Source of the DNA: Prevotella sp.
GTDB lineage: Bacteria > Bacteroidota > Bacteroidia > Bacteroidales > Dysgonomonadaceae
DNA length: 64,000 nt
Reading direction: 5' to 3'
Assembly (NCBI GenBank): GCA_031285625.1
Contig: JAITVV010000006.1
Location: forward strand, 36,963-100,962
The notes beneath the pieces are model-generated. The model saw nothing but the letters and a program-made list of their open reading frames with translations, did no database searches and was not told the DNA's origin. How positions within the stretch are numbered: the stretch's first letter is position 1; the number at the start of each line of letters is the position of its first letter. Below are positions 22,594-42,993 of the stretch, piece after piece. The position numbers were made by a program, and so were the translations under genes.

Positions 22594-22625
22594 CAAACAA
22601 TATATTTAACTAAAAAAAGAATAGT

Positions 22626-24136: not shown

Positions 24137-24154
24137 TCGAATACGAATAATACT

Positions 24155-26367: not shown

Positions 26368-26425
26368 TTAAAGAAAAATAATTTATCTTATTTTAACATA
26401 TGCGGTTACCTTAAATTATAAAACT

Positions 26426-27481: not shown

Positions 27482-27527
27482 TAACTGTTAAATTTTAAAA
27501 GTCGCTTCATAACTATATTAATTATTG

Positions 27528-27569
27528 GCAATAAAAATCCATTATATATGCATTTTTTATCCATTTAGT
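27528..27569 (+). promoter_or_regulatory. Tandem AraC-type operator A, before susC of PUL 3
   Basis: Two copies of GCA-N7-TCCATT in direct repeat with a 22-bp period: GCA at 27528/27550 and TCCATT at 27538/27560. Over 42 bp it matches 35 positions of operator B at 34145. The two-box half-site fits an AraC monomer, which contacts two neighbouring major grooves. Confidence 0.72.
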
Positions 27570-27586
27570 ATTTGCCTTAATTTCAG

Positions 27587-27594
27587 TATGTTTA
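27587..27594 (+). promoter_or_regulatory. -7 box of the PUL 3 susC promoter
   Basis: TATGTTTA, 7 of 8 matches to the Bacteroidetes TAnnTTTG box. It starts 59 bp after the first base of operator A, the same offset as at operators B (58) and C (59), and lies 32 bp before the susC start codon. Confidence 0.6.
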
Positions 27595-27625
27595 CTATTG
27601 TTAAACTATTATAAATCTAACTAGT

Positions 27626-30600
27626 ATGAAAATTTTCTTTTTTAAGAGGATCGCTATATTCATAGCGGTGCTAGCTATCTCTGTTGGAATTTTTTCGCAA
27701 GTAAATCCGGGCCAGGTATCTGGACTTGTAACTGATGGTGAAGAAAATCCACTAATAGGAGTAAGTATAAAGGTGAAGGGCACAAAGACCGGTACAGTAT
27801 CGGATTTTGATGGCAGGTATCAGATCAATATTTCCAGCGAAGCGGATGTGTTGATTTTTTCTTATGTTGGGTTTGCTCCCAAAGAAATAACGGTTGGTAA
27901 TAACAAAACTTTGAATGTAGTATTACAAGATGAACACAATGCGCTTGATGAGGTTGTGGTTACAGCTTTGGGGATCAAGCGTGAAAAAAAGGCTTTAGGT
28001 TATGCTGTACAAGATATCAAGGGAGACGTACTTACCGAAGTACGTGATCCTAATATGTTGAATTCTCTGGCCGGACAGGTAGCTGGGGTACAGATATCTA
28101 ATTCAGCGTCGGGGGGGCTCGGTGGCTCTCCTAAAATATCTATTCGTGGAGATATATCTTTTACGAATAGTGCTCCTCTTTTTGTAATAGATGGAGTACC
28201 ACTAAATAATAACTCCAGTAACTATAATACCGATGGGATGGATTTTGGTAGTGGTGCTGCTGATATTAATCCCGATGATGTGGAGTCTATGAGTGTTCTT
28301 AAAGGACCTACAGCTGCTGCATTATATGGTAGCCGTGCAGCAAATGGAGCTGTCGTGATTACAACAAAAAGCGGGAAAAAGAATAAAGGCTTAGGTATTA
28401 CTTATAATTCCAACCTGGTTATTCAACCACGATTATTAAGAACTCCAAATTATCAGTATAAATATGGTGCAGGTGAGAACTTTGAATATTCATATGTTGA
28501 TGGTAACGGAGGAGGAATAAATGATGGAGCTGGATATTGCTGGGGACCTAAATTAAATCAACTTGATCCAAGTACTGCAAGTGGTTTTGTAGAAATACCC
28601 CAATTTGCCAGTCCGATAGATCCGGTAACAGGAGCGCGTATAGCTATTCCGTGGGTAGCACATAAGAATTTTCTGGAAGATTTTTTTGAAACGGGAACCG
28701 TATTCACTAATAATGTATCAATTAGTAATGCCAACGAAAATGGAAGTTTCCGCCTTTCGTATACAAATCTCGATCAAAAAGGCATAATGCCTAATACCGA
28801 TCTTCAACGTAATACTGTTTCTCTTAGTGCAGGGTATAATCTTGCCAAATTCCTACGTGTAAATGCGAACGTTAATTATGTACAAAATAAGAGTGATAAT
28901 ATGCCTCAGTTGAATTATTGGGACAAGCCTATAATGTACACATTTATGTGGTGGGGAATGAATGAGGATGTAAAAGCTCTGAGAAATTATTGGACTCCGG
29001 GAAAAGAAGGGTTGGAACAGACCAATTATAACAATTCGTGGATGGATAATCCTTACTTTACATTGTATGAGAATACCCAATCACAACTAAAGAACCATCT
29101 ATATGGTAATGTGTCATTTACGCTAGATATAATAGATGGGCTTTCGTTGATGGGAAGAACGGGAACAGACTGGTATGATGATAATATACGTATAAGACGT
29201 GCCTATAGTTCGAGAAATTACCCCAATGGTATGTATGCTGTGAATAATTATATATTCCAGGAGCGAAATAGTGATTTCCTTCTCACATGGGATAAACCAA
29301 ATGAATCGAACTTTCAGTATAAAATATCATTCGGAGGTAATATGATGCGTCGCTCGATACGTAAAACCGCAGCAAAAGCCCTTGAACTGGAAATCCCAGG
29401 TATATATAATCTGGAAAATGCCAGATCTACACCTACATTAAATGAAGAAAATCAGGAAAAAGCCATTAACAGTTTGTATGGTATGGGACAACTGGTTTAC
29501 AAGAACATGCTATATCTGGATGTTACTGCCCGAAACGACTGGTCGAGTACATTGCCTCTCAACAATAACTCTTATTTCTACCCGTCTGTTTCTTTGAGTG
29601 GCTTGATTTCAGAGATGGTAACTTTACCTAAAGCAGTATCTTTTCTCAAGTTGAGAGGATCATGGGCACAGGTAGGTAATGATACAGACCCATACAAATT
29701 AGTGAACGTTTATCAGTTTGGTGGAAAATGGGGAAGTACAAGTTCCGCTTATGAGGGTGGTGGACTATTGAATTCATTGCTGAAACCTGAGAAGATAAAC
29801 AGTATTGAGTTTGGTGCGGACTTGCGCTTTTTGGGAGACCGGATAGGTCTTGATGTAGCGTATTATAATACAATTGCTACCAATCAGATATTGAATATGT
29901 CCATTGCTCCTAGCTCGGGTTATGATTCTAGAATGATAAATGCCGGAAAAATAGAGAGTCGTGGTTTTGAAGTTGTTCTGAATGCTACCCCTCTTCGTTT
30001 CAAAGATTTTGAATGGAATATGACACTCAACTGGTCTACAAATCGTGCGTATGTTCGCGAATTGGCAGATGGATTGGATACTTATGATATGGGATATAAT
30101 GCTCAGGCCAGAGTAGGTGGACGTATGGGTGACCTTTATGGCTGGGGCTTTAAGCATGCACCTGATGGACAGATGATTTATGGTGAAGATGGCTTACCTG
30201 TATGGGAAGATGAAATCAAGTGTTATGGTAATTATAATCCGGACTGGATGGCAGGATTGAAAAATTCATTTACATTCAAAAATTTCAGATTGTCGGCATT
30301 ACTCGATTACAGAAAAGGTGGACGCATTTTTTCAGGCACTTTGTCCAAAGGTATGGAAGGTGGTGTACTGGCAGAATCCGCTATTGGTAATCAACGAGAA
30401 GAAGGTCTCATCGGTGATGGCGTAATCGCTACGTACGATGCAGAAGGAAATGTTACCGGATACAGAAAAAATGATGTAAGGGTCAGTCTTCGCGACTGGA
30501 TAGGAAGATATCATAGTAGAGATTCATTCGAAACGAATAGTTATGATGCTTCTTATCTCAAACTGCGGGAAATAGGGCTTTCATATACTTTTCCTCAGAT

Positions 30601-30775
30601 CAAAATATCGGAAAACTATTCATTACGTAATGTGACCATAGGTGTTACGGGGCGTAATCTATGGATGTGGTCGAAAGCAAAACATATCGATCCCGAATCC
30701 GGAGGGTTTGGTTATGAGGATGTTCAGATACCTACACCTAAGAGTATAGGTTTCAATCTAAGTGTCTCTTTCTGA
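27626..30775 (+). CDS. SusC/RagA TonB-dependent transporter (PUL 3, no STN domain)
   Basis: 1049 aa. Signal peptide 1-25 (ends IFSQ), carboxypeptidase-D-like domain (about 30-108; LIGVSIKVKGTKTGTVSDFD), plug (about 110-245; PLFVIDGVPLNN, SVLKGPTAAALYGSRAANG), then the beta-barrel ending LSVSF. It lacks the STN domain of the PUL 1 and PUL 2 transporters, so it does not signal to a FecR. That agrees with control by an AraC regulator instead. It is paired with a SusD_2-type lipoprotein 29 bp downstream. Confidence 0.95.
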   Translation: MKIFFFKRIAIFIAVLAISVGIFSQVNPGQVSGLVTDGEENPLIGVSIKVKGTKTGTVSDFDGRYQINISSEADVLIFSYVGFAPKEITVGNNKTLNVVLQDEHNALDEVVVTALGIKREKKALGYAVQDIKGDVLTEVRDPNMLNSLAGQVAGVQISNSASGGLGGSPKISIRGDISFTNSAPLFVIDGVPLNNNSSNYNTDGMDFGSGAADINPDDVESMSVLKGPTAAALYGSRAANGAVVITTKSGKKNKGLGITYNSNLVIQPRLLRTPNYQYKYGAGENFEYSYVDGNGGGINDGAGYCWGPKLNQLDPSTASGFVEIPQFASPIDPVTGARIAIPWVAHKNFLEDFFETGTVFTNNVSISNANENGSFRLSYTNLDQKGIMPNTDLQRNTVSLSAGYNLAKFLRVNANVNYVQNKSDNMPQLNYWDKPIMYTFMWWGMNEDVKALRNYWTPGKEGLEQTNYNNSWMDNPYFTLYENTQSQLKNHLYGNVSFTLDIIDGLSLMGRTGTDWYDDNIRIRRAYSSRNYPNGMYAVNNYIFQERNSDFLLTWDKPNESNFQYKISFGGNMMRRSIRKTAAKALELEIPGIYNLENARSTPTLNEENQEKAINSLYGMGQLVYKNMLYLDVTARNDWSSTLPLNNNSYFYPSVSLSGLISEMVTLPKAVSFLKLRGSWAQVGNDTDPYKLVNVYQFGGKWGSTSSAYEGGGLLNSLLKPEKINSIEFGADLRFLGDRIGLDVAYYNTIATNQILNMSIAPSSGYDSRMINAGKIESRGFEVVLNATPLRFKDFEWNMTLNWSTNRAYVRELADGLDTYDMGYNAQARVGGRMGDLYGWGFKHAPDGQMIYGEDGLPVWEDEIKCYGNYNPDWMAGLKNSFTFKNFRLSALLDYRKGGRIFSGTLSKGMEGGVLAESAIGNQREEGLIGDGVIATYDAEGNVTGYRKNDVRVSLRDWIGRYHSRDSFETNSYDASYLKLREIGLSYTFPQIKISENYSLRNVTIGVTGRNLWMWSKAKHIDPESGGFGYEDVQIPTPKSIGFNLSVSF

Positions 30776-30804
30776 TAAAGTAGCTATTTTAAATTTGAAA
30801 CATT

Positions 30805-32226
30805 ATGAAAAATTTTATATATATAATCGCTTTATTGCTATTTATGGGGGCTTGTACGAAGGATTTCGAAGACATAAACACCAATAAGAACAAGCCGGAA
30901 ACTATTATTCCTGACCTTTTACTAACATACCTGACATATCAAACTGTTGATACAGGACCTCAGGGTAGTGTAGTTACACAGCATTTAGCTGCGCGTGACT
31001 GGGTTGTTGGTCTGGGTAGATACGACTGGTGGGGAACTCCGTACTGGGATTACCCAAATTTACGGAATGCAAATAATCTTATTATTGAAGCCGAAAATAT
31101 GGGGAATGATAATTTTAAGGGAATAGGACTTATATTTAAAACATTCTTATTTTCCCGAACTACCGATTGTGTCGGTGATATTCCATTTAGTGAGGCTCTC
31201 AAAGGTAAAGAAGGGATCTATATGGCGAAGTATGATACTCAAGAAGAGGTGTATAAGGGTTTGTTGGCCTATCTTGATGAAGCTAATGACCTGATAGACG
31301 TCAATGGAACTTCTATTTCAGGGGATATTCTTTATGGAGGAGATTTACTGAAATGGAAAAAATTTGCCAATTCTCTTCATTTACGTTTGTTAATGAGAGT
31401 TTCAGAAAAAATGCCTGATGCAAAGGCAAAAATAAAGGCAATTGTGGATAATCCGGAAAAATACCCTATATTTGAAAGTAACGACGATATGGCCGCCTTG
31501 ACTTACCTTCCTGATGCGCCAAACAGATATCCGAACTATAATGCTGCGGGATACGATGCGGGTGAAGTAGTACTGGGTAAACCGCTTGCCGATACATTGT
31601 TGAACTATAATGATCCGCGTATAGCAAAAATGGCACAACCAACTATGGCATCTGTTAATGGTGGTACAGTTGAGTTTGTTGGAGTACCTTGTGGAATGAC
31701 TAAAGATGAGGCTTTGTCATATAACGGGGGACGCGAATATCAGTCACTTGTAAATGCTCGCTATAGCCATGACCCTGTTGGCGAAAAAGGTATTTTTATG
31801 TCTTATGCCGAACTCCAGTTTATCCTTGCTGAAGCAGCTCAAAAGGGATGGATCGGTGGAAGCGCCAAGGTTTATTATGAAAATGGGATAAGAAGCTCTT
31901 TCGAGTATTATGGGGTATCTGCAGATGTCGATAGTTACTTAACTGGTTCAAAAGTTACCTATAATCCGGCCAATGGTCTTTTACAAATTGGTGTACAAAA
32001 GTGGATTTCTTTCTATTTCAACTCCGGTTATGAATCATACTTTGACTATCGGCGTACTAAAATCCCATATCTGTTTCCGGGAACCGGAAACCTGAACGGC
32101 GGAAAGATTCCTGTACGATGGAAATATCCTGATTCGGAACAGAATTTAAATGGAAATAATTTTAAAGAAGCGATCGAAAGACAGGGAGCAGACAATATTA
32201 ATACTGCTATTTGGCTAACCAAGTAA
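30805..32226 (+). CDS. SusD-like lipoprotein, SusD_2 type (PUL 3)
   Basis: 473 aa, lipobox GAC (Cys17). The start CTKDFEDINTNKNKPETI, the DVGDIPFSEA-like segment DCVGDIPFSEALKG near 120, and KWKKFANSLHLRLLMRVSE near 195-213 are those of the SusD-like_2 group, not the classical SusD_RagB group. The C-terminal half has EAAQKGWIGGSAKVYYENGI near 345-365. It is the surface partner of the SusC at 27626. A hairpin at 32240-32265 follows it. Confidence 0.92.
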   Translation: MKNFIYIIALLLFMGACTKDFEDINTNKNKPETIIPDLLLTYLTYQTVDTGPQGSVVTQHLAARDWVVGLGRYDWWGTPYWDYPNLRNANNLIIEAENMGNDNFKGIGLIFKTFLFSRTTDCVGDIPFSEALKGKEGIYMAKYDTQEEVYKGLLAYLDEANDLIDVNGTSISGDILYGGDLLKWKKFANSLHLRLLMRVSEKMPDAKAKIKAIVDNPEKYPIFESNDDMAALTYLPDAPNRYPNYNAAGYDAGEVVLGKPLADTLLNYNDPRIAKMAQPTMASVNGGTVEFVGVPCGMTKDEALSYNGGREYQSLVNARYSHDPVGEKGIFMSYAELQFILAEAAQKGWIGGSAKVYYENGIRSSFEYYGVSADVDSYLTGSKVTYNPANGLLQIGVQKWISFYFNSGYESYFDYRRTKIPYLFPGTGNLNGGKIPVRWKYPDSEQNLNGNNFKEAIERQGADNINTAIWLTK

Positions 32227-32239
32227 CAACAACAGCAAA

Positions 32240-32275
32240 AGGAGAGGGTAACTAATCCCTCTCCTATGTTTTATT
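32240..32275 (+). terminator. Intrinsic terminator after the PUL 3 susD gene
   Basis: Stem AGGAGAGGG / CCCTCTCCT (9 bp) with an 8-nt loop, followed by ATGTTTTATT. It lies between SusD and the phosphatase-like gene, so the latter may be expressed at a lower level by read-through. Confidence 0.7.
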
Positions 32276-32296
32276 AATGATTAAATATGGAATATA

Positions 32297-33217
32297 ATGC
32301 TTAACATTTACAAAGTCTTATTGAGTATTTCTCTTATTTTTTTAGTGTGTGCATGTAAAAATAATCAGTCAACTGCACCTGTAGAACTCAAAGTTATGAG
32401 TTTCAATATATGGGTAGGTGGAGGTAAGTCTATCGATGCTACAGGTAAAGTTTTTGCAGAAAGTAAAGCTGATATAATCGGTGTACAAGAGTCAACACGT
32501 AATGATAAAAATATTGCGGCTCAGTTGGCGGATAGTTTGGGATGGCATTCTTATGTATATGGACAGAGTACAGCAATAATAAGTAAATATCCGATAGTAG
32601 ATACCTCTGCGAACAAGCATGGTGTGAAAATCAAGATTGACGAAACTCATTTTGTATGGATGTTTAATATACATCTTATGTACTGTCCATACGAACCATA
32701 CCAATTGAATGGTATAGAATATTGTGGTGGGCCCATATTACAAACTGCAGAACAAGCTGTTGCTTCGGCTACTGCTACCAGAAGTAAAGAAGTAGAATCA
32801 ACTATTGCAGATATATTGGAAGTGGGAAAGGAAGGATTTCCTATCTTTCTTACAGGAGACTTTAATGAGCCTTCTTGTCTGGACTGGACGGTTAAGGCAG
32901 TAGAAGCAGGATTATGTAAAACTGCTGTGGAATGGCCTTCAACTAAAGCCTTTCTTAATAAGGGAGGTATGAAAGATTCGTACCGCATATCATATCCTGA
33001 CGAGGTAAAAAATCCCGGGCATACATGGACTCCACTACCGGAAACAACAGCATATAAGGAAGTCTTAGACCGTATCGACTTTGTTCTTTTCTCTGGAGAA
33101 AAAATAGAATTGAAAAACTCTGTTATCCTTGGGGAAGAGAGTTCTAAGAGTGATGTTGGCTTTAAAGATTATCCATCAGATCACAGAGCAGTAATGAGTA
33201 CTTTCATGCTGAAGTAA
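32297..33217 (+). CDS. Endonuclease/exonuclease/phosphatase (EEP) family lipoprotein
   Basis: 306 aa, lipoprotein signal ending VCAC (Cys20 likely lipidated). All EEP (DNase I-like) metal-dependent motifs are visible: MSFNIWVGGG near 34-43, the VQESTRND glutamate near 64-71, FNIHLMY near 120, the LTGDFNEPS active-site segment near 195, RIDFV near 260, and the terminal PSDHRAVMS. A lipoprotein in a SusC/D locus is more likely to act on a phosphodiester or phosphomonoester of an extracellular glycan or lipid than on nucleic acid, but the substrate is unknown. Its 3' end overlaps the convergent AraC gene by 14 bp. Confidence 0.85.
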   Translation: MLNIYKVLLSISLIFLVCACKNNQSTAPVELKVMSFNIWVGGGKSIDATGKVFAESKADIIGVQESTRNDKNIAAQLADSLGWHSYVYGQSTAIISKYPIVDTSANKHGVKIKIDETHFVWMFNIHLMYCPYEPYQLNGIEYCGGPILQTAEQAVASATATRSKEVESTIADILEVGKEGFPIFLTGDFNEPSCLDWTVKAVEAGLCKTAVEWPSTKAFLNKGGMKDSYRISYPDEVKNPGHTWTPLPETTAYKEVLDRIDFVLFSGEKIELKNSVILGEESSKSDVGFKDYPSDHRAVMSTFMLK

Positions 33218-34112
33218 TTTTGCTTGACAGTTTGTTTACAACACGGTATCTGGCTGGAGAGGTACCCATCATTTTCTTGAAAAGCCGTGAGTAATAATAA
33301 GGATCGTCAAATCCTACCAGAATAGATATCTGATTGATCTTCATCGTGCTATTAAGCAAGTAATAGCACGATCGTTGTACTTTTAGTTGGTTGAAAAACT
33401 CCATTGGTGCAATACCCATATTTTTATAGAATAGTCTGTAAAAATATGAAACAGAATATCCAAAGTGTTCAGCTATATCCGATAGCTTTAACTTATTTCC
33501 TATATTTTCATTCATATAGTGTGTCGCCAGATGGATAAGTGAAGTCCCATACCGGTTCTCAGCTTTCGAATTTCTGTGAGTCTTTACATATAATATAGAG
33601 CCTAAGAAATATGCCAGGCCAAAGTTTGCATATTGTAATGCACCATCATCATGTGAATCAGATAAGACATTGTAAATATCTTCAAAAACTTTGAAGCGTT
33701 CATCAATACGCGAGTTATTTTCGGGATCGATAGATATTACTTTGCCATATATTTCAGAAAATAGTTTCGATTTGTATCCTTTGAAGTGTATCCAGTAAAT
33801 TGTCCAGGGATTAGTCTCATTTGCACCATAACGGTGAGCTGTATTAGCAGGAAGTATAATGAATTGATTTTCATTTACTGAATGTACTTTTCCATTTAGT
33901 TCAAACCATCCTCCTCCTTTGGTACAATAGATAAGAATATTTTCAGGACATCCTGTCGGTCTGTTTATATAGTGATATTTGGCAGAAGGAAAATATCCCA
34001 AAGAATGAAAGTAAATATCATTCATCATCGGATTTTTATCCATCTCCTCGACAATAAAATACGGTAATATAATGCTCCATTGTCCATGGAAACCGTGTTT
34101 GATCTGTGTCAT
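33204..34112 (-). CDS. AraC-family transcriptional regulator (cupin sensor + two HTH)
   Basis: 302 aa. N-terminal AraC cupin sensor (about 40-170; NILIYCTKGGGWFELNGKVH, ILPANTAHRYGANETNPW) and a C-terminal pair of helix-turn-helices (about 200-295; KLSDIAEHFGYSVSYFYRLFYKNMGIAP and QISILVGFDDPYYYSRLFKKMMGTSPARYR). Soluble, so it senses an intracellular sugar or metabolite. It is divergent from the methyltransferase operon at 34392, and operator B lies between them. The same tandem site occurs before susC at 27626 and the oxidoreductase at 38198. It probably activates all three transcripts and may control itself. Confidence 0.93.
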   Translation of the reverse strand: MTQIKHGFHGQWSIILPYFIVEEMDKNPMMNDIYFHSLGYFPSAKYHYINRPTGCPENILIYCTKGGGWFELNGKVHSVNENQFIILPANTAHRYGANETNPWTIYWIHFKGYKSKLFSEIYGKVISIDPENNSRIDERFKVFEDIYNVLSDSHDDGALQYANFGLAYFLGSILYVKTHRNSKAENRYGTSLIHLATHYMNENIGNKLKLSDIAEHFGYSVSYFYRLFYKNMGIAPMEFFNQLKVQRSCYYLLNSTMKINQISILVGFDDPYYYSRLFKKMMGTSPARYRVVNKLSSKITSA

Positions 34113-34144
34113 TTTAGGTTAGTTATTTGTCCCACGTAAAATTA

Positions 34145-34186
34145 GCAATAATAATCCATTTTTTATGAATGATTTATCCATTTTGT
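34145..34186 (+). promoter_or_regulatory. Tandem AraC-type operator B, AraC/methyltransferase intergenic region
   Basis: Same tandem structure as operator A: GCA at 34145 and a degenerate GAA at 34167, with TCCATT at 34155 and 34177, period 22 bp. It lies between the divergent AraC gene and the corrinoid operon and can serve both. The downstream half-site abuts a TTTG (34182-34185) that could act as the -33 element. Confidence 0.72.
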
Positions 34187-34202
34187 GAGCATAACAAATA
34201 TA

Positions 34203-34210
34203 TAATTTTG
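34203..34210 (+). promoter_or_regulatory. -7 box of the corrinoid methyltransferase operon promoter
   Basis: TAATTTTG is a full match to TAnnTTTG. A TTTG 17 bp upstream (34182-34185) is a possible -33 element, slightly closer than usual. The box starts 58 bp after the first base of operator B. The implied transcript has a leader of about 175 nt with no recognised riboswitch; no cobalamin riboswitch consensus was seen. Confidence 0.65.
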
Positions 34211-34391
34211 TTAATACAACTTAACCATGGAAAATCGTGTGTCAGGGATGTAAAATATAGGTAATTAATTAATCCCTGATTACATCAAGATCAAAATAAA
34301 AACGAAATATACTTATACATTAATGAATTATCTAAATGTAAGGATTATCCAGTAATTCCCTTACAGGAAGCTAAATCTTACCTTAAAAATT

Positions 34392-35642
34392 ATGGCTACA
34401 TCAAAAAAACGTGTGCTGGATGCACTCAATCACAGAAACAGTGACCGTATTCCTGTCGATTTCGGCACTACCGGAGTCACGGGTATCCACTGTAAAGTTA
34501 TAGAGGGTCTTCGCCGTCATTACGGGCTGGCAGATCGACCCGTGAAAATTGTAGAACCTTTTCAGATGCTTGGCGAGGTTGACGAAGAACTGCAACAAAT
34601 TGTGCGCACAGACTGTGTTGGTATATATGGAAAAAAGGATATGTTTTCCATAGATGAATCGGAACTTCATGAACAGGTAACTCCATGGGGCCAACATGTG
34701 TTGATCGCCAGGGATATAGATCTTACTCCCGATAAGAATGGCGATGTATATATCTATGCAGAAGGAGACCGCTCATATCCTCCATGTGCAGTTATGCCGC
34801 AAGGGTGTTATTTTATCAATGCAATAGAGAGAGTTGATAATTATGATGAATCTAATATCAGACTTGAAGATAATACAGAAGAATATTCATATATCTCAGA
34901 TGAAGATTTAGATCATTTTACGAGCGAAATAGAAAAAGCTTCACACACCGAAAAAGCTATAATAGCCAGTTTTGGTGGAGCAGCTCTCGGTGATATTGCA
35001 TTTGTACCGGGTATGGGATTAAAGGATCCAAAGGGAATAAGAAGTGTAGCCGAATGGTATATGTCTACTGCTTTGCGTCCCGAATTTATCCACCGGATAT
35101 TTGATAAACAAATAGATATTGCAATTGAGAATTACAAAAAACTATGGGATAGGGTAGGGAGTAAAGTAGATGTTGTCTTTACTTGTGGTGCTGATTTCGG
35201 TACACAAGAATCTCAATTCTGTTCAGCGGCTTCATTCAATGAATTATGGGTTCCTCACTATAAGAGGATGAACGATTGGATACATGAGAATACAACATGG
35301 AAAGTATTCAAGCATTGCTGTGGTTCTATTATTCCTTTGATTCCTTCCCTGATAGAAGCAGGATTTGATATTCTCAATCCTGTGCAGATAAATGCAAAAG
35401 ATATGGATTCTCACCGCCTGAAATCTGAATTTGGAGACCATCTTACATTTTGGGGTGGAGGTATTGATACCCAAAAGGTACTGCCAAAAGGTACTCCTGA
35501 AGAAGTGAAACGACATGTATTAGGACAATGTGAAATCTTTGGTAAAGATGGTGGATTTGTATTCACCTCCGTACACAATATACAGGCAAATGCCCCGATA
35601 GAAAATGTAGCAGCTATGTTTGATGCTTTAAATACAATATAA
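34392..35642 (+). CDS. URO-D-fold corrinoid methyltransferase (substrate side)
   Basis: 416 aa, cytoplasmic. Uroporphyrinogen decarboxylase-type TIM barrel, but in the context of a corrinoid protein, as for the MtaA/MtbA/MtsA fold group. Start KKRVLDALNHRNSDRIPVDF is typical; a probable zinc-binding segment is FKHCCGSIIPLIPSLIEAG (His308, Cys309/310), followed by DILNPVQINAKDM and FWGGGIDTQ...GTPEEVKRHV. It probably moves a methyl group from an unknown methylated substrate to the corrinoid protein encoded 7 bp downstream. A true heme-pathway HemE is unlikely from length and neighbours. Confidence 0.88.
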   Translation: MATSKKRVLDALNHRNSDRIPVDFGTTGVTGIHCKVIEGLRRHYGLADRPVKIVEPFQMLGEVDEELQQIVRTDCVGIYGKKDMFSIDESELHEQVTPWGQHVLIARDIDLTPDKNGDVYIYAEGDRSYPPCAVMPQGCYFINAIERVDNYDESNIRLEDNTEEYSYISDEDLDHFTSEIEKASHTEKAIIASFGGAALGDIAFVPGMGLKDPKGIRSVAEWYMSTALRPEFIHRIFDKQIDIAIENYKKLWDRVGSKVDVVFTCGADFGTQESQFCSAASFNELWVPHYKRMNDWIHENTTWKVFKHCCGSIIPLIPSLIEAGFDILNPVQINAKDMDSHRLKSEFGDHLTFWGGGIDTQKVLPKGTPEEVKRHVLGQCEIFGKDGGFVFTSVHNIQANAPIENVAAMFDALNTI

Positions 35643-35649
35643 AACAGAT

Positions 35650-36285
35650 ATGGAAAATTTAAATAATATATACGAAGCTGTATTAAAAGGTAATTTGCCT
35701 TTAGCCGTAGAATCAGCGCAAAAGGCTATCACAGAAAATGTAGATCCTCAGATAATAATCAATGATTATATGTCGAAGGCTATGGAGGAGATCGGTTCCC
35801 GGTTCGAATCTGGTCAGGCATTTGTCCCGGAATTGTTAATGTCGGCGCGTGCCATGAAAGGAGCACTTGATCTGCTGAAACCTCTGTTGGCGAATAATTC
35901 TTCTGCAAGTCTGGGTAAAGTAGTAATAGGTACTGTAAAGGGAGATCTGCACGATATTGGCAAAAACCTTGTAGCATCCATGTTGGAAGGTTGTGGTTTT
36001 GATGTGATAAATCTGGGTGTAGATATTTCTTCCGAAAAGTTTGTGCAGGCTGTAAAAGAGCATAATGCAAATATTGTTTGTCTGTCGGCACTACTGACCA
36101 CTACCATGAACTATATGAAAGAAATTGTAATTGCCTTGGAAAAGGAAGGCTTGCGTAATAATGTTAAGATTATGATTGGTGGAGCGCCTATCAGTTCTGA
36201 ATTTGCAAATGAAATAAATGCTGATGGATATAGTGATAATGCAAATTCTGCCGTAAATCTGGCAAAACAATTAATTGCTTCTTAA
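35650..36285 (+). CDS. Corrinoid (B12-binding) methyl-carrier protein
   Basis: 211 aa, the usual length of MtaC/MtbC/MttC-like carriers. N-terminal four-helix cap domain (about 1-85) and B12-binding Rossmann domain (about 88-211). The lower-ligand motif D-x-H-x-x-G is present (Asp99, His101, Gly104, in GTVKGDLHDIGKNLV), so cobalamin is bound base-off/His-on. It carries the methyl group between the two URO-D methyltransferases of the same operon. Needs B12 uptake or synthesis elsewhere in the genome; none is in this window. Confidence 0.94.
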   Translation: MENLNNIYEAVLKGNLPLAVESAQKAITENVDPQIIINDYMSKAMEEIGSRFESGQAFVPELLMSARAMKGALDLLKPLLANNSSASLGKVVIGTVKGDLHDIGKNLVASMLEGCGFDVINLGVDISSEKFVQAVKEHNANIVCLSALLTTTMNYMKEIVIALEKEGLRNNVKIMIGGAPISSEFANEINADGYSDNANSAVNLAKQLIAS

Positions 36286-36295
36286 ATCTGATACT

Positions 36296-36982
36296 ATGAA
36301 ATCATCTTCAATTCCTTTTTTAGATTTGAATCTGAGCAAACAGTATGTTCTGGAAGAGATGGGGTATGGTACTGTTACTCCTGATCATGCTGTGACAGCT
36401 ATCTTGGATGAATTTTTTAAATTACTCGAAAAAGAGGTTGTGACAGAATATATTTTTAATATGTATGAAGGGCAAATGGGTGATGGTAAGATCATATTTG
36501 GTAATACTTGCCTTGGTGCTGGGAATACAATTACCTCTCTTCTGAAAAACTCGGTAAAATATGTCATTTTTGCAGCTACTGCAGGACCTCATTTTGATAA
36601 AAGAATGCAACAGGTAAAGGCAGGGGATGATATGCTCAGAACCTATATACTGGATGCTATCGGGACTTGTATAGTCGAAAAGACAGGAGATATTATGGAA
36701 ATGCATATTAAGCAGGAGATTAATGGGCTCAATCATACTAATCGCTTCAGTCCCGGTTATTGTGGCTGGCCATTAACTGATCAGAGAAATCTGTTTCAGT
36801 TAATAGGTGGGAGGCCTTGTGGAATCACCTTATCTGAAGTCTGTCTTATGCATCCCATTAAATCGATAAGTGGTATAATGGGTATAGGTCAGAATGTAAA
36901 TCAGAAACTATATGGATGTAACTTTTGTGAATTGGAAACTTGTTATAAACGAAAAAAACTTAAAACCCGAGCTACTGTATGA
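36296..36982 (+). CDS. Stand-alone MetH-type cobalamin reactivation domain
   Basis: About 228 aa from the ATG at 36296; a longer frame from a TTG at 36275 would overlap the corrinoid gene and is less likely. It matches the activation domain of B12-dependent methionine synthase (Met_synt_B12), with the S-adenosylmethionine-binding motif R-x-x-x-G-Y at Arg150-Tyr155 (RFSPGYCGWPLTDQ). In MetH this domain reductively remethylates inactive cob(II)alamin. Here, on its own, it likely rescues the corrinoid protein at 35650, the role RamA/RACo plays elsewhere. The C-terminus has Cys208-x2-Cys211-x4-Cys216, not part of MetH, that could bind metal. ATGA overlap with the next gene. Confidence 0.85.
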   Translation: MKSSSIPFLDLNLSKQYVLEEMGYGTVTPDHAVTAILDEFFKLLEKEVVTEYIFNMYEGQMGDGKIIFGNTCLGAGNTITSLLKNSVKYVIFAATAGPHFDKRMQQVKAGDDMLRTYILDAIGTCIVEKTGDIMEMHIKQEINGLNHTNRFSPGYCGWPLTDQRNLFQLIGGRPCGITLSEVCLMHPIKSISGIMGIGQNVNQKLYGCNFCELETCYKRKKLKTRATV

Positions 36983-38004
36983 CTATGAATATGAAAGAAT
37001 GGATATCCCGGATAATAGAATCACCTGTGAGGATAGCCATCCCAATAATGACTCATCCTGGCATCGAATATCTGGGAAAGACAGTAAAAGAGGTTGTAAC
37101 TGATGGTACAGTCCACTTTGAAGCCATAAAGGCTTTGAATAATATGTATCCTCCGGCAGCTTGTACTGTTATCATGGATCTCACTGTGGAGGCGGAAGCT
37201 TTCGGAGCGGAAGTAGTTTTTCCCGAAAATGAAATTCCTACAGTTACAGGAAGGTTAGTATATGATATAGATTCTGTAAAAAATCTCGAAATACCGGATA
37301 TGACTAAAGGACGATTACCCGAATACATTTTAGCTAACAAGCTAACTGCTGAAAATATAAAAGATAAGCCGGTTTTTGGTGGTTGTATCGGTCCTTTTTC
37401 CTTAGCCGGACGTCTCTACGATATGTCTGAATTAATGATGGCATGCTATACAGAACCTGAAATAGCTAAATTGTTATTAGCAAAATGCGCTACATTCCTT
37501 AAGGATTATTGTACAGAACTGAAAAGGCAAGGTATTCAGGGTATCGTAATTGCAGAACCTGCAGCGGGATTACTTTCTAACGAGGGGTGTCAGGAATTTT
37601 CTTCTGAATATATAAAACCCATTGTGGAAGCTCTGCAGGATGACGAATTTATAATTATCCTCCATAACTGTGGAAATAAAGGACATTGTACAGACGCTAT
37701 GTTAAGCACGCAGGCCAAAGGATATCACTTTGGTAATATGATGAATATGGAATTGGCACTTGATCAATGTCCTGCAGATACTTTGGTATTAGGTAATCTT
37801 GATCCGGTAGGTGTATTCAAGAATGCTTCTGTAGAACAAATGGAATCGGAGGTATTTGGCTTATTGGATAAAACCAGGTTACATCCCAATTTTGTATTAT
37901 CTTCCGGATGTGATATACCACCACATATACCATTAGAAAATATAGAAGCTTTTTACCGGGCATTGGACAAATTCAACGAACAATCATCGCAAATAGTTAA
38001 ATAG
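36979..38004 (+). CDS. MtaA/MtbA-like URO-D methyltransferase (acceptor side)
   Basis: 341 aa, URO-D fold. The zinc-ligand pattern of methylcobamide methyltransferases is visible: His229-x-Cys231 (ILHNCGNKGHC) and Cys311 (SSGCDIP). Three in-frame ATGs occur within the first five codons, so the exact start is open. In methanogens such enzymes pass the methyl group to coenzyme M; in a bacterium like this the acceptor is more likely tetrahydrofolate or another thiol or folate (inference). It completes a donor-methyltransferase / carrier / reactivase / acceptor-methyltransferase set in one operon. Confidence 0.88.
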   Translation: MTMNMKEWISRIIESPVRIAIPIMTHPGIEYLGKTVKEVVTDGTVHFEAIKALNNMYPPAACTVIMDLTVEAEAFGAEVVFPENEIPTVTGRLVYDIDSVKNLEIPDMTKGRLPEYILANKLTAENIKDKPVFGGCIGPFSLAGRLYDMSELMMACYTEPEIAKLLLAKCATFLKDYCTELKRQGIQGIVIAEPAAGLLSNEGCQEFSSEYIKPIVEALQDDEFIIILHNCGNKGHCTDAMLSTQAKGYHFGNMMNMELALDQCPADTLVLGNLDPVGVFKNASVEQMESEVFGLLDKTRLHPNFVLSSGCDIPPHIPLENIEAFYRALDKFNEQSSQIVK

Positions 38005-38045
38005 CAAATATTGTCCATTCTTTTGGCAAAATTAGTCTATCTTTT
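38004..38045 (+). promoter_or_regulatory. Tandem AraC-type operator C, before the oxidoreductase operon
   Basis: Third copy of the tandem site: GCA at 38004 and 38026, TCCATT at 38014 and the variant TCTATC at 38036, period 22 bp. It starts at the last base of the methyltransferase operon's final stop codon, so an upstream transcript would run through it. Confidence 0.62.
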
Positions 38046-38062
38046 TTATAGTCGAAATTGAT

Positions 38063-38070
38063 TATTTTTG
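38063..38070 (+). promoter_or_regulatory. -7 box before the oxidoreductase at 38198
   Basis: TATTTTTG, a full match to TAnnTTTG, starting 59 bp after operator C begins. Implied leader of about 120 nt. Confidence 0.6.
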
Positions 38071-38197
38071 TTTTGATAGTATTATGAAAAGCTAACTAAG
38101 ATTCACAAACAAGGTACTACAATCTGAGACCTTAATTATCCATGATTTTTATATTAAATTTCTTTAGTATACAACTGTAAATAAAATAAGACAAGAA

Positions 38198-39388
38198 ATG
38201 GATCGTAAACAATTTATTTCCCGATTAGGTACAATAGGCGCTGCAGCAGTTGCTGCTCCTATTATTGGTACATCATCATTAGAGGCTGCAGTATCATCCA
38301 CAAATAATACAACTCTTTCATCAAATAAAATCCGTGTAGGTGTTATTGGATGTGGTAGCGTATCAGGCATGTATTTGCCACATTTAACCAAATGTCCGTA
38401 TGCCGAGGTTGTAAGTGTATGCGATATTATACCACAAAAAGCGCAGGATGCTGCAAAAAAATACAATGTAAAAAACTGGTATCCTCACATAGATAAAATG
38501 CTGGCTGGTGTGCCTTTCGATCTGCTTGTAAATCTTACCGATATGCAGGAACATGGTCGGTTGAATCGTCTGGCCCTGATGAAGAAGGTTAATGTGTGGA
38601 GCGAGAAACCTATGGCAAATACCTATGATGAAGGTCGCGAATTGTACGAACTGGCTAAAGTTCAAGGAGTACGTATATGGGGTGCACCGGCAATTGTAAA
38701 TAGCCCTCAGTTTGCTTTTATGGCAAAACAAATCAATGAAGGCAATCTGGGACGCATTGCAGCAGCGCATGCTCATTATGGACATCAGGGGCCTAATTGG
38801 TCTGCATTTTTCTTCGAAGAGGGAGGAGGCAGCTTGCCGGATTTGGGTGTATACAACATATCTACATTGACCGGTTTATTCGGGCCGGCTAAATCTATTG
38901 TAGCCATGACTAATGTGGTAGATCCTACACGCAATACAGGAAATAAAGGACATATACAGGTCGTGGCCGAAGATAATGCTATGATTATTATGGAACATCA
39001 GAATAATATACTTTCTCATATTCAATGCGGGTTCAACTATTTTGATCCGTATGGCCATGAAGGTACGGGACAGGAACGTCCTACAATATCTGTTGTAGGT
39101 TCTACCGGAAATATGCACATGATTGGTTACGATTGGAAACCATTCGGTGTAGATATGGCTACGATGGCAAATGAGAAAACTCAACGTTTTGCTACTGATC
39201 CAGGTACATTCCTATGGGAAGAAGGGGCTTCTGCAATATGTGAATCCATGGTTACCGGAAAGGAATCTTTGATCAATGCAGAACATGCATTACATGTATT
39301 GGAAATTATTGAAGCAGCGCGTCTGTCGCAAAAAGAAGGTAAAAGAGTTTCGTTAAGATCTTCTTTCAAATGGCCGGTTGTGATATAG
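38198..39388 (+). CDS. Gfo/Idh/MocA-family oxidoreductase, exported (396 aa)
   Basis: The N-terminus (DRKQFISRLGTIGAAAVAAP) resembles a Tat signal, with Arg-Lys instead of two Arg. Rossmann motif IRVGVIGCGSVSGMYLP near 45-61, catalytic-region WSEKPMANTYDEG near 133-145 (EKP, the standard family motif), and a C-terminal alpha/beta domain. It is shorter than, and unlike, the two ~500-aa oxidoreductases of this window. Its promoter carries operator C, which suggests co-regulation with the corrinoid operon. Substrate unknown; oxidation of a sugar hydroxyl is the family role. Confidence 0.88.
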   Translation: MDRKQFISRLGTIGAAAVAAPIIGTSSLEAAVSSTNNTTLSSNKIRVGVIGCGSVSGMYLPHLTKCPYAEVVSVCDIIPQKAQDAAKKYNVKNWYPHIDKMLAGVPFDLLVNLTDMQEHGRLNRLALMKKVNVWSEKPMANTYDEGRELYELAKVQGVRIWGAPAIVNSPQFAFMAKQINEGNLGRIAAAHAHYGHQGPNWSAFFFEEGGGSLPDLGVYNISTLTGLFGPAKSIVAMTNVVDPTRNTGNKGHIQVVAEDNAMIIMEHQNNILSHIQCGFNYFDPYGHEGTGQERPTISVVGSTGNMHMIGYDWKPFGVDMATMANEKTQRFATDPGTFLWEEGASAICESMVTGKESLINAEHALHVLEIIEAARLSQKEGKRVSLRSSFKWPVVI

Positions 39389-39815
39389 TGCACTAATATA
39401 TAAATATATAACTATTTTTTGTTTGTTATTGTGGTGGTACATCTTTGGGGCCAGAAGTCCAATATTACCAGTCTGATCCCAAGATGGCCCACAATGACAA
39501 TAAGGGAAAAGATAAGAAGGGTAGATCTAAATAAGGATGAGAACGATTGTAGCCAAATAATGTAAAAAGGTTGGTTTAATGAGTAGAATTATTGGTAGAG
39601 ATAACTTATCTCTGTTAGGCTTCAATCAGGATATTCTCATCTCAAGGTCTTGAGTTGGAATCTAAAGTAGAAACTTCGGCTAGAGTAGCAGCTACTGGAG
39701 TTTCTACTGGATTCTTGCCAACATTTATTTAGGTTGATAAATAAAACCGAATGCTTTCTATATTTGTTAGAAAAGGATGAAATGTAGTATATAAATAAAT
39801 CGAAATAAAAGAGTT
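39389..39815 (+). other. 427-bp intergenic stretch with protein-like fragments and hairpins
   Basis: No full gene. A 41-codon open frame without an early start (39412-39534) ends in a highly charged tail beginning at an internal Met (MAHNDNKGKDKKGRSK). A 25-codon ATG frame (39579-39653) is continued in another frame by about 38 codons up to 39732. This looks like decayed coding DNA or chance. Hairpins: GAGATAA-C-TTATCTC (about 39598-39612) and GTAGAAACT...AGTTTCTAC (about 39668-39708). The promoter box of the next gene lies at 39759-39766. Confidence 0.4.
39759..39766 (+). promoter_or_regulatory. -7 box before the DUF1080 gene at 39816
   Basis: TATATTTG, full match to TAnnTTTG, with GTTG at 39733-39736 as a weak -33 candidate. 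No copy of the AraC tandem motif occurs upstream, so this transcript may be separately controlled. Confidence 0.5.
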
Positions 39816-40610
39816 ATGAAAAAGATTTCTTATTTCTTATTAACTTCTGCCGCTATGTTACTATTTGCGTGTGGGGGTAAAAAAGCAGAACAATCTTCTT
39901 CTGAAGGAGAAAAAAATGCAGACCCGATGGTCTTGTATGGAGAAATAGACCGTACATCAGTACCAAATACTATTACTGAAGCCGAAAAGTCGAAAGGATG
40001 GCAATTGCTGTTTGACGGGACAACAGCCAATGGCTGGCATGGCTATAATCTGAAAGGGGTTCCGGATTGCTGGGCTATAGAAGATGGGGCTTTAACAATG
40101 AAAAGTGTAGGTGCTCAGGAAGAAGAGCAAGATCTTCTTACAAACAAGGAATACAAAAAATTTGCACTATCTTTAGAATATAAGATGACAAAAGGAGCAA
40201 ACAGTGGTATTGTATTCCAAATAAAAGAAGATCCTAAATATAGATTTGCATACGAAACAGGACCTGAATTTCAGGTTATTGATCACGAAAACTGGCATGA
40301 AAAACTGGAAGACTGGCAGATAAACGGAGGAAATTATGCTATGTATCCGCCAATCGCAAAACCTTATAAAGCTATAGGTGAATGGAACCAGCTGATGTTG
40401 GTTGTAAATGGTAATGATGTAACTCAGATTTTGAATGGGGAGGTAACGGTTAAGTATACAAAATATTCAGATGAATGGACAAAACTCCGCAATAGTGGGA
40501 AATGGTCTGCTTTTCCTGATTATGGAAAATATGATGAGGGTTATATCTCGCTACAGAACCATGGTACAAAAGTTTGGTACAGAAATATTATGATTAAAGA
40601 ACTAAAATAA
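39816..40610 (+). CDS. DUF1080 (3-keto-disaccharide hydrolase-type) lipoprotein, second copy
   Basis: 264 aa, lipobox LFAC (Cys19), then a Ser/Glu/Lys-rich linker. DUF1080 jelly-roll about 62-263: GWQLLFDGTTANGWHGYN, KFALSLEYKMTKGANSGIVF, ending GTKVWYRNIMIKELK. It shares fold and motifs with the DUF1080 protein at 22626 but has a different lipoprotein linker. It lies 8 bp before a Tat-exported oxidoreductase, the partner arrangement known for 3-keto-glycoside cleavage. Probably periplasmic. Confidence 0.88.
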   Translation: MKKISYFLLTSAAMLLFACGGKKAEQSSSEGEKNADPMVLYGEIDRTSVPNTITEAEKSKGWQLLFDGTTANGWHGYNLKGVPDCWAIEDGALTMKSVGAQEEEQDLLTNKEYKKFALSLEYKMTKGANSGIVFQIKEDPKYRFAYETGPEFQVIDHENWHEKLEDWQINGGNYAMYPPIAKPYKAIGEWNQLMLVVNGNDVTQILNGEVTVKYTKYSDEWTKLRNSGKWSAFPDYGKYDEGYISLQNHGTKVWYRNIMIKELK

Positions 40611-40618
40611 TTTATCAT

Positions 40619-42097
40619 ATGACTACTCGTAGAAATTTTCTAAAAAAATCTGCAATAGCTGCTGCAGGTTTATATATATTCCCGTCCAATGTTATCAGCG
40701 GATTGGGACATAAAGCCCCAAGTGATAAACTAAACATTGTCGGTGTTGGTATCGGAGGTAAAGGACACCCTAACCTAGTAGGTATGAATACTGAAAATAT
40801 TATTGGGCTTTGTGATGTGGATTGGGCCTATGCAAAGAGTTGCTTTAATGAGTTTCCTAAAGCAAAGCGATACAAAGACTGGCGCAAGATGTTTGATGAA
40901 CTTGGAAAAGAAATAGATGGAGTAATGGTGTCTACGCCGGACCATACACATGCTATAATAGCAGCAACCGCATTGACAATGGGTAAACATGTATATTGTC
41001 AGAAACCTTTGACACATTCTATATACGAAAGCCGTTTGCTGACACGCCTGGCTGCCAAGTATAAAGTAGCTACACAAATGGGTAATCAGGGTAATTCAGG
41101 AGATGGTGTACGCCAGGTTTGCGAATGGATATGGAATGGTGAAATAGGTGAAATACGCGAAGTGCATGCATGGACAGACCGTCCGATATGGCCTCAGGGA
41201 CTACAACGCCCTAAAGAAGTGGTAAAAGTACCATCGACGTTAGACTGGGATAATTTTATCGGGCCTGCTTCGTTTCGTCCTTATAACCCTGTATACACCC
41301 CTTGGAACTGGCGCGGATGGTGGGATTTCGGAACAGGTGCTTTTGGAGATATGGCTTGTCATGTACTCGATCCTATCTATCAGGCATTAAAACTTGGGTA
41401 TCCTACTAAAGTGCAAGGTAGCTCATCCTTAATTAATACAGAATCTCCACCTCAAAGCGAGAAGGTAGAATTTACATTCCCGGCACGGGATAATATGCCA
41501 AAAGTAGCCATGCCGGAGGTGAAGATATATTGGTATGATGGCGGATTATTCCCTAATCGTCCCGATCTTCTTCCTGATGGAACAGATCTTATGCGTGATG
41601 GCCTTGGTGGATGTATTTTTGTTGGTTCTAAAGATACTATGATCACCGACTGTGGTGGATTCAATCCTCGCCTGTTGTCTGGTCGTGTTCCGAATGTACC
41701 TCAGACTCTGCGCCGGGTGCCTGGTGCAACAGGTTATACTGATGGCTATCATGAGCAGGACTGGATAAGGGCATGTAAGGAATCTCCTGAAAACAGAGTG
41801 GAGACAACCAGTAATTTCGCATATTCAGGACCATTCAATGAAATGGTTTTGCTCGGAGTCCTTGCTATACGTATGCAGAGCCTGAATAAAATTCTGAGAT
41901 GGGATGGCGATAATATGAAATTTACAAATATAGGAGCAAATGAAGAATTGAGAGTCGTTTCTAAAGACGCTTTCTGGGTTAAAGACGGACACCCTCATTT
42001 CGAACGGGAATATACAACATCGAACGCCCAGGCATCTGTTGCTGAATATATAAAACACACATACAGAAGTGGCTGGTCTTTACCTGCAATGCCTTAA
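40619..42097 (+). CDS. Gfo/Idh/MocA-family oxidoreductase, Tat-exported (492 aa)
   Basis: Twin-arginine signal TTRRNFLKKSAIAAAGLYIF. Rossmann motif LNIVGVGIGGKGHPNLVG near 39-56, YCQKPLTHSIYESRLL near 122-137 (QKP in place of EKP, as in the enzyme at 21058), and NWRGWWDFGTGAFGDMACH near 220-240. It ends with the same HTYRSGW type of tail as the PUL 2 enzyme, so the two belong to one subfamily. Likely oxidises glycosides in the periplasm, giving substrate to the DUF1080 protein encoded 8 bp upstream. Confidence 0.9.
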   Translation: MTTRRNFLKKSAIAAAGLYIFPSNVISGLGHKAPSDKLNIVGVGIGGKGHPNLVGMNTENIIGLCDVDWAYAKSCFNEFPKAKRYKDWRKMFDELGKEIDGVMVSTPDHTHAIIAATALTMGKHVYCQKPLTHSIYESRLLTRLAAKYKVATQMGNQGNSGDGVRQVCEWIWNGEIGEIREVHAWTDRPIWPQGLQRPKEVVKVPSTLDWDNFIGPASFRPYNPVYTPWNWRGWWDFGTGAFGDMACHVLDPIYQALKLGYPTKVQGSSSLINTESPPQSEKVEFTFPARDNMPKVAMPEVKIYWYDGGLFPNRPDLLPDGTDLMRDGLGGCIFVGSKDTMITDCGGFNPRLLSGRVPNVPQTLRRVPGATGYTDGYHEQDWIRACKESPENRVETTSNFAYSGPFNEMVLLGVLAIRMQSLNKILRWDGDNMKFTNIGANEELRVVSKDAFWVKDGHPHFEREYTTSNAQASVAEYIKHTYRSGWSLPAMP

Positions 42098-42107
42098 AGG
42101 TGTATTC

Positions 42108-42143
42108 AAGGGGAGTGCGTACGGGGTTTTAAGCACTCCCTTT
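42108..42143 (+). terminator. Hairpin terminator after the second oxidoreductase
   Basis: Stem GGGAGTGC / GCACTCCC (8 bp, extended by A-T and G-T pairs) with a 14-nt loop and a short T-run. It may reduce read-through into the isomerase-like gene at 42178. Confidence 0.65.
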
Positions 42144-42177
42144 ATCCATTGATTGTTCATCCTTAATCTTATAGAAT

Positions 42178-42993
42178 ATGAAATACATTAAGTTATTGAT
42201 ATTACCTTTTATCCTATGTCTTATTGCATGCACTGGCGAGCCAGAGAAGCCTGATTGGAAATTAGGAATGCAAACATATACTTTCCACAAATTCACATTA
42301 ATGGAAACCCTTGATAAATCGAAAGATCTCGGTATCCACTATGCTGAAGCCTTCTTTTTCCAGTCGCTGGGAACTAATTTCGCCGATTCTGCATATCTCA
42401 ATTATGATATATCCGAAGATGTGAAGAAGCAGTTGAAAGAAGAGTTTGCTAAACGGGATATTACTTTATACGCATTTGGTGTAGCATTCTATGATACTAC
42501 CGATGAGTGGGAGCATTTCTTTAGCTTCGCTAAGGATATGGGTATCCATATTGTAACGTGCGAACCAAAACTCGAACATCTTGATTTTGTAGAACAACTA
42601 GCCTTGAAATATAATATACAAGTAGCTATACATAACCATCCTGATCCATCTGTATATGCAGATCCCAAAGTATTAGAGAAAGCACTTGAAGGCCGCAATC
42701 AAATAATGGGTGTATGTGCCGATATTGGACATTGGAAAAGGACAGGTAACGATCCTATAGCGACTCTTAAGAAGTTTGAAGGCCGGATAAAAGTAGTGCA
42801 TATCAAGGATTTGAGTGAAAAGCTGGAAGATACAACCTGGGGTACCGGAATTCTGCAAGTGAAAGAGGTCTTGGCTGAATTGAAAAGACAAAAATTTGAT
42901 GGACTTGTATCTATTGAATATGAAAACTTCGGAGATTCGCAACTTGATGATATAAAGAAAAGTTTGGAATATTATAACCTGAATCTAAAGTAA
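42178..42993 (+). CDS. Sugar phosphate isomerase/epimerase-like (AP_endonuc_2) lipoprotein
   Basis: 271 aa, lipobox LIAC (Cys18), followed by a xylose-isomerase-like TIM barrel: KLGMQTYTFHKFTLMETLDKS-type start, AIHNHPDPSVYADP near 142-155, VCADIGHWKRTGNDP near 178-192, VVHIKDLSEK near 204-213 and SIEYENFGDS near 250. Metal-binding His/Glu/Asp positions look intact. In the Bacteroides 3-keto pathway a protein of this fold is part of the same cluster and, as I recall, handles the unsaturated keto-sugar intermediate. Its lipid anchor shows it works outside the cytoplasm, so ordinary sugar-phosphate isomerisation is unlikely. Confidence 0.85.
   Translation: MKYIKLLILPFILCLIACTGEPEKPDWKLGMQTYTFHKFTLMETLDKSKDLGIHYAEAFFFQSLGTNFADSAYLNYDISEDVKKQLKEEFAKRDITLYAFGVAFYDTTDEWEHFFSFAKDMGIHIVTCEPKLEHLDFVEQLALKYNIQVAIHNHPDPSVYADPKVLEKALEGRNQIMGVCADIGHWKRTGNDPIATLKKFEGRIKVVHIKDLSEKLEDTTWGTGILQVKEVLAELKRQKFDGLVSIEYENFGDSQLDDIKKSLEYYNLNLK

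Follow-up and report, generated by a model that had tools for sequence, protein, structure and literature searches.

Tandem direct repeats that serve as binding sites for AraC-type DNA-binding domains have been described in Escherichia coli and in Bacteroides. The half-site of E. coli AraC is given as TAGC-N7-TCCATA (PMC4514859). Hybrid two-component systems of Bacteroides have an AraC-type helix-turn-helix (HTH) and operators made of tandem direct repeats at a mean distance of 21 bp, those for mannan consisting of 16-bp sites with a 5-bp spacer (PMC3878776), and an AraC-family sugar regulator of the Bacteroidales acts on a rhamnose regulon through a tandem operator whose motif is described as unique (PMC3870299). 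Here, we analyse a 64,000-nucleotide stretch of DNA (the window) from Prevotella sp. (GenBank assembly GCA_031285625.1, contig JAITVV010000006.1, positions 36,963 to 100,962 of the forward strand); the genome is most closely related to Dysgonomonas. The window contains three tandem sites, A, B and C, that precede genes for SusC/SusD-like uptake, corrinoid-dependent methyl transfer and sugar oxidation, respectively, and a gene for an AraC-type regulator (AraC in the following) that adjoins B. The best explanation overall, to which we give a probability of about 0.9, is that all three sites are operators of this AraC, which would co-activate the three operons in the manner of a class II activator.

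As in E. coli AraC, the half-sites in the window are direct repeats with two boxes each, one helical turn apart, the TCCAT box being the second (PMC4514859). The protein likewise joins a cupin-like sensor to two HTH motifs, while the GC and TCCAT boxes are 8 apart in the window and 7 in E. coli. Over the DNA-binding domain 28 of 97 residues are identical, and the position of H212 of E. coli AraC is taken by an arginine. The araI half-sites are oriented towards the promoter in the same way as the window sites and have a period of 21, against 22 in the window. Unlike in E. coli, the window promoters have the -7 box of the Bacteroidota, and the targets are unrelated. The NCBIfam AraC equivalog is the best match of the window protein, yet the cut-off is missed (97.4 versus 208 bits). 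The rhamnose regulator resembles it in family, order and tandem operator and differs in regulon and motif, the window having a period of 22 (PMC3870299), whereas the hybrid two-component systems are sensor-kinase fusions, in contrast to the window protein, a short cupin AraC whose operator has a 6-bp spacer (PMC3878776).

Tandem sites at three promoters

Sites A, B and C each consist of two half-sites GCA-N7-TCCATT with a period of 22 bp: A reads GCAATAAAAATCCATT-ATATAT-GCATTTTTTATCCATT, B reads GCAATAATAATCCATT-TTTTAT-GAATGATTTATCCATT and C reads GCAAATATTGTCCATT-CTTTTG-GCAAAATTAGTCTATC. The initial annotation had placed such sites at 27528, 34145 and 38004, with one GAA and one TCTATC variant, a match of A and B at 35 of 42 positions, a TAnnTTTG-like box 58-59 bp from the first base and an araC gene next to B; all of this was found again on recounting, the box at +59 in A, +58 in B and +59 in C, and the gene on the minus strand with its start codon 32 bp from B. 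Three tandem sites in the window have at least 16 of the 18 consensus bases, all with a -7-like box, as against 0.0067 per window and none with a box in 300 dinucleotide shuffles; at 14 of 18 there are six (three with a box) versus 0.95 (0.017 with a box). A chance origin of the sites is excluded. Random matches throughout the genome, which the initial annotation had named as grounds for abandoning its proposal, are few: in all 4.84 Mb the tandem pattern with up to two mismatches occurs at A, B, C and three other places only, none of which is among the core-plus-box matches at up to three mismatches.

Other periods were tried as well. Among 80 AraC loci (L027-L106), period 22 gave eight matches with a score of at least 14, five of them with a box; the ten other periods within 17-27 together gave four (one at 20, three at 21), none with a box. 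We therefore reject an artefact of the period, since box-bearing matches occur at 22 only.

Could the resemblance of the sites be a leftover of promoter duplication, with no regulatory meaning? A and B are indeed alike across the whole core (17/18 operator box positions, 15/20 remaining core positions), and two promoter copies in Dysgonomonas sp. ZJ279 closely resemble each other. A/C (24 of 42 positions) and B/C (27 of 42), on the other hand, are alike in the boxes (16/18 and 15/18) and unlike in the rest of the core (6/20 and 9/20); all 15 compiled sites, a set chosen by similarity that excludes the degenerate one of locus L032, keep GCAA and TCCA unchanged in the left half; and the sites track one AraC clade, as described below. 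Duplication without function is thus almost certainly not the answer.

A -7-like box lies at +58 or +59 in 11 of 13 tabulated sites. In the Bacteroidota, a -33 element (TTTG) is expected 19-21 bp before the -7 box, and an operator half-site over the -33 place without a well-spaced TTTG is the layout of an activator-dependent promoter. None of A, B and C has TTTG at 19-21 bp; that place is taken by the promoter-proximal half-site. Each promoter thus has a tandem direct-repeat operator upstream in fixed helical phase, with the proximal half-site overlapping the -33 place and a good element absent, as in class II systems. Class II activation is most likely because of this overlap and the missing TTTG. 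An AraC dimer would place one monomer on each 16-bp half-site, in which GCA would be read by the first HTH and TCCATT, a helical turn further along, by the second. With its ligand bound, AraC would then most likely work in the way known from E. coli AraC at araI1-I2, and would turn on SusC/SusD-like uptake and the Exo_endo_phos protein jointly with corrinoid-dependent methyl transfer and 3-keto-glycoside-type sugar oxidation.

AraC may also shut its own promoter from site B. TAnnTTTA stands on the opposite strand, touching the left half-site, at four of four araC-adjacent Dysgonomonas sites, as against TAnnTTT at none of seven non-adjacent ones; outside the genus, L029 and L030, both with a site next to araC, have no match. 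This box suggests autorepression of araC through B. It is also what speaks for a regulator that mainly represses these promoters, together with a TTTG at B that is spaced 17 bp from the box and might be a poor -33 element. At the target operons, however, the spacing between the -7 box and the right half-site, which stands on the -33 place, is constant and there is no TTTG at 19-21 bp, and we regard a chiefly repressive role as unlikely compared with activation.

The regulator and its clade

The protein belongs to the AraC/XylS family (HTH_AraC 76 bits in two stretches, HTH_18 67 bits, both above the cut-offs; PF12833/PF00165) and to its sugar branch (AraC_binding, PF02311, 45 bits versus a cut-off of 21). 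Operator and regulator occur together. Among 25 Dysgonomonas genomes (the window's included, several of them incomplete) there are 11 distinct sites with operator core plus box at up to three mismatches, all in six genomes, and these are exactly the six with an AraC at least 51% identical; the other 19 have none. Reversed-pattern controls gave 0 and 1 match, and the odds of a six-out-of-six coincidence are 1 in 177,100 by a hand calculation that ignores kinship.

The motif is also kept at orthologous loci, where its loss would have told against the initial annotation, and before a relocated gene pair. In ZJ279 one operator precedes susC and another lies between araC and the Gfo/Idh/MocA oxidoreductase gene GFO1, in D. 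mossii an operator lies between araC and GFO1, in genome G014 between araC and GFO2 (a second Gfo/Idh/MocA gene), and in G019 and G010 before GFO1. GFO1 (E <= 1e-100) occurs in five of the 25 genomes and is preceded by an operator in each. Two further sites had not been looked for beforehand. DUF1080-GFO2, which come after GFO1 in the window, D. mossii, G010 and G019, stand on a second contig of ZJ279 (74 and 83% identical) behind an operator of their own, found in the genus-wide search, with the box ending about 320 bp upstream of the gene; and in G010 the box of an operator lies 36 bp upstream of a ROK-NanE pair adjoining araC. Across 393 Bacteroidales genomes the strict pattern with box had no matches beyond window site C and D. 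mossii, and the controls had none; a position weight matrix (PWM) made from the Dysgonomonas sites alone found operators among the 80 AraC loci in Alistipes (one before an MT1 methyltransferase orthologue), an uncultured bacterium and Parabacteroides gordonii.

A tree of 93 AraC proteins (95 extracted, two filtered out), built blind to the motif, puts all nine operator-bearing rows in one clade of ten (support 100/99), and the operator label changes twice on it versus 8.7 times in shuffles. Six rows were labelled by the scan (window, L027-L031), G014 and G019 by spacer reading followed by pattern search and G010 by the operators of its genome; for the 83 other rows, 72 loci were scanned with the PWM, three with a simpler consensus and eight by pattern via the genus genomes, with varying locus lengths. 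The tenth member, L032, is from an uncultured Alistipes with methyl-transfer genes; its tandem is degenerate, TAACTTTG standing at +59. All ten share Y223-x-Y225-R226 (window numbering) in the first recognition helix; none of the 83 others has all three residues (singly, Y223 in 19, Y225 in 1 and R226 in 1). A further 24 AraC proteins from the 393 genomes, all without the full signature, have no best tandem with a full box within about 1.5 kb per side. As far as sequence can tell, the operator goes with a single AraC clade and with the recognition helix of that clade.

Might a different regulator bind the sites? Bacteroidota genomes hold many, the operators of hybrid two-component systems are tandem as well (PMC3878776), and candidates would be a 41% identical AraC paralogue elsewhere in the genome or a Y_Y_Y/GerE-type protein (45237-48056). 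Against this, the operators in the genus are confined to genomes with the cognate AraC, and the helix signature is unique to its clade among the 93 proteins compared, so that we consider such a binder very improbable. The paralogue (39-42% identical) forms a clade of eight rows that includes five genomes without operator plus box (G001, G003, G005, G015 and G018); because it is present in five of the 19 Dysgonomonas genomes without sites it is not the cause of the sites, and its binding to them was rejected. Co-occurrence, clade and recognition helix thus support the AraC regulon of the initial annotation. Sites, boxes, conservation and the link to the clade are read from the sequence; binding, activation, an inducing ligand and autorepression we infer.

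Several points weigh against this interpretation, beyond the off-spaced TTTG at B. The -7 box is missing in two of the 13 tabulated sites (P. gordonii L030 and the second Alistipes site), the possible araC box is seen in four close relatives, and close Dysgonomonas sequences are non-independent samples in general. ZJ279 is the only other species in which a counterpart of site A was found upstream of susC. The scan of the 80 loci also scored a boxless place inside araC of ZJ279. Two of the nine operators on the tree (G014 and G019) were first read by eye and searched by pattern later, and the degenerate L032 site was spotted by eye once the tree was known. Outside the clade, the AraC of L216, which has R226 and not both tyrosines, adjoins a weak site (score 9.0, 5/6 box), and L228 has a fair tandem (score 18.3) without a box.

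The regulon is small and sharply bounded, with regulator, operator and recognition helix traceable together over ten proteins, nearly all from Bacteroidales, which allows the specificity rules of AraC-type proteins to be tested outside Enterobacteria.

Two loci show other genes near the operators. In P. gordonii (L030:8779-9965) the araC-side operator without a -7 box faces away from araC, with no clear same-strand gene after it, and a URO-D gene and a sugar transporter come before araC on the plus strand. In G010 (L205:4192-9955) the ROK-NanE pair and the GFO1 operon, each with an operator, enclose genes for a PFL-like glycyl-radical enzyme and its activase and a GH31 gene.

The methyl-transfer operon and a possible pathway

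The closest described relatives of the operon behind B are type 1 mlp clusters, with which it shares UroD-superfamily methyltransferases, a corrinoid protein and the lack of a recognised tetrahydrofolate methylase in the operon (PMC10418091). It differs from them in a MetH-type activation domain protein in place of Ram/RACE and in its SusC/D and sugar-oxidation neighbours. Its two URO-D proteins, MT1 and MT2, and single corrinoid protein agree with type 1; a Ram/RACE reductive activase is absent from the operon (the rest of the genome was not searched), and the remaining gene has only PF02965. MT2, like MtaA, keeps HxC and a distant C. The stand-alone activation domain at 36275-36982, together with two URO-D methyltransferases, resembles a split methionine synthase. 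A sequence search of the PDB with MT1 and the Exo_endo_phos protein gave no match at E 0.001, and folding of the MT1 leader is barely above shuffles (z -0.92; 37 of 200 shuffles equally good).

The initial annotation had all three functions switched on together. In the window all three have a site; this does not extend to the other 24 Dysgonomonas genomes, where the sites found serve uptake and/or sugar oxidation and in one case ROK-NanE, and MT1 (E 1e-20) is found in the window's genome alone of the 25, apart from a partial 34% match in G005. Outside the genus, two Alistipes loci with an AraC of the same clade have MT1 (63 and 66% identical), corrinoid protein, activation domain protein and MT2. 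In L032 the degenerate operator is followed by a GH120-like gene and then by the four in a row; L031 has MT1 directly behind an operator with box and the other three about 10 kb off, behind a GH2 gene at the stretch end. MT1 homologues (E 1e-60) occur in 25 of the 393 genomes (28 matches including the window's own). The regions around 20 of the 27 others (5.9 to 20 kb) contain a single match at score 12, which scores 12.4 and lacks a box, and no corrinoid gene at E 1e-10; such methyltransferases are therefore not generally tied to this regulator. Three of these regions (L157, L159 and L160; MT1 53%) have GFO2-like genes 57-73% identical, two of them DUF1080 as well.

The operon lies exactly between the direct repeats B and C (34145-38041), where D. 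mossii and G014 have one operator. The araC-GFO1 spacer of D. mossii aligns with the araC side of B through the left half and, more strongly, with C from the left half on; its upstream resemblance is weak (19.5/40 to B, 17.5 to C). Downstream parts are of the B type at window B and two ZJ279 sites, and of the C type at window C, D. mossii, G014, G019 and G010. This fits an ancestor with both promoters; in D. mossii and G014 the block between them would then have been lost at the operators; alternatively, the block may have been inserted at an operator in the window lineage. The GC content of the operon (0.385 versus 0.382 in the window) bears no mark of foreign origin.

Taken as a whole, the regulon appears real but of an ordinary kind, and points to an undescribed nutrient pathway. 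Tentatively, and with considerable doubt, we speculate that this is a so far undescribed Bacteroidota route for O-methylated glycosides, with SusC/D import, 3-keto cleavage by Gfo/Idh/MocA and DUF1080 proteins, and demethylation by a split MetH-like corrinoid system that the stand-alone MetH domain would reactivate, the methyl group perhaps going to homocysteine and the module being gained and lost at the operators. DUF1080 proteins include 3-keto-glycoside hydrolases (PMC9007349). The 3-keto role of GFO1 is a guess from family and neighbours, because its 57 PDB sequence matches are mixed, mostly other oxidoreductases with DgpA chains and a glucuronide-3-dehydrogenase among them, and it scores far below the cut-off of the NCBIfam glycoside 3-dehydrogenase models. 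A literature search, with most subscription journals beyond reach, gave no paper evidently on this regulon among the matches listed. The locus would place SusC/D uptake, sugar-oxidation enzymes and corrinoid methyl transfer under the control of a single switch, and so offers a lead to the substrate of Bacteroidota methyltransferase genes that lack a known function.

Gene layout of the window

Table 1. Positions of the operators, promoter boxes and genes within the window.
Feature	Position	Strand	Remarks
Operator A (tandem half-sites)	27528..27565	+	upstream of susC-susD-EEP; matched by an orthologous site upstream of susC of Dysgonomonas sp. ZJ279 (L027:16600, minus)
-7-like box TATGTTTA, promoter A, +59	27587..27594	+	5/6 bases
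SusC/RagA-type TonB-dependent transporter	27626..30775	+	TIGR04056, 666 bits
SusD-like_2 protein	30805..32226	+	PF12771, 315 bits
Exo_endo_phos family protein; lipoprotein judged by eye	32297..33217	+	convergent with araC, overlapping
AraC-type regulator (cupin-like sensor domain, two HTH); proposed binder of A, B and C	33204..34112	-	
Possible araC -7 box TAATTTTA	34137..34144	-	abuts left half-site of B
Operator B	34145..34182	+	between araC and methyl-transfer operon
-7 box TAATTTTG, promoter B, +58	34203..34210	+	6/6 bases
URO-D family methyltransferase MT1	34392..35642	+	416 aa
Corrinoid protein, MtgC/MetH-like B12-binding	35650..36285	+	
Stand-alone MetH-type activation domain protein	36275..36982	+	PF02965, 38.6 bits; start codon uncertain
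URO-D family (MtaA-like) methyltransferase MT2	36979..38004	+	stop codon overlaps first base of operator C
Operator C	38004..38041	+	upstream of GFO1
-7 box TATTTTTG, promoter C, +59	38063..38070	+	6/6 bases
Gfo/Idh/MocA oxidoreductase GFO1	38198..39388	+	
DUF1080 (3-keto-disaccharide hydrolase family), GFO2 (second Gfo/Idh/MocA), TIM-barrel protein	39816..42993	+	probable downstream part of operon C

A search of 26000-40000 for riboswitches and known RNAs gave nothing credible, two snoRNA-like matches below the gathering score lying inside araC. Co-transcription of GFO1 and DUF1080 is unsure because of the 427-bp gap between them in the window (39389-39815), which holds no operator plus box; in D. 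mossii the gap is 72 bp by the ends of the open reading frames. At their 3' ends, araC and the Exo_endo_phos gene share 14 bp (33204-33217). These two genes adjoin each other in the window and in the three genomes with an 82% identical AraC orthologue, and in ZJ279 a 71% identical Exo_endo_phos copy adjoins a 41% AraC paralogue (L114).

Further upstream, at 21058-25096, Gfo/Idh/MocA, DUF1080, glucosamine-isomerase-like and ROK genes stand behind a SusC/D pair linked to an ECF sigma factor and FecR. Their orthologues in ZJ279 (L027:4496-9880) come straight after GFO1, behind the operator.

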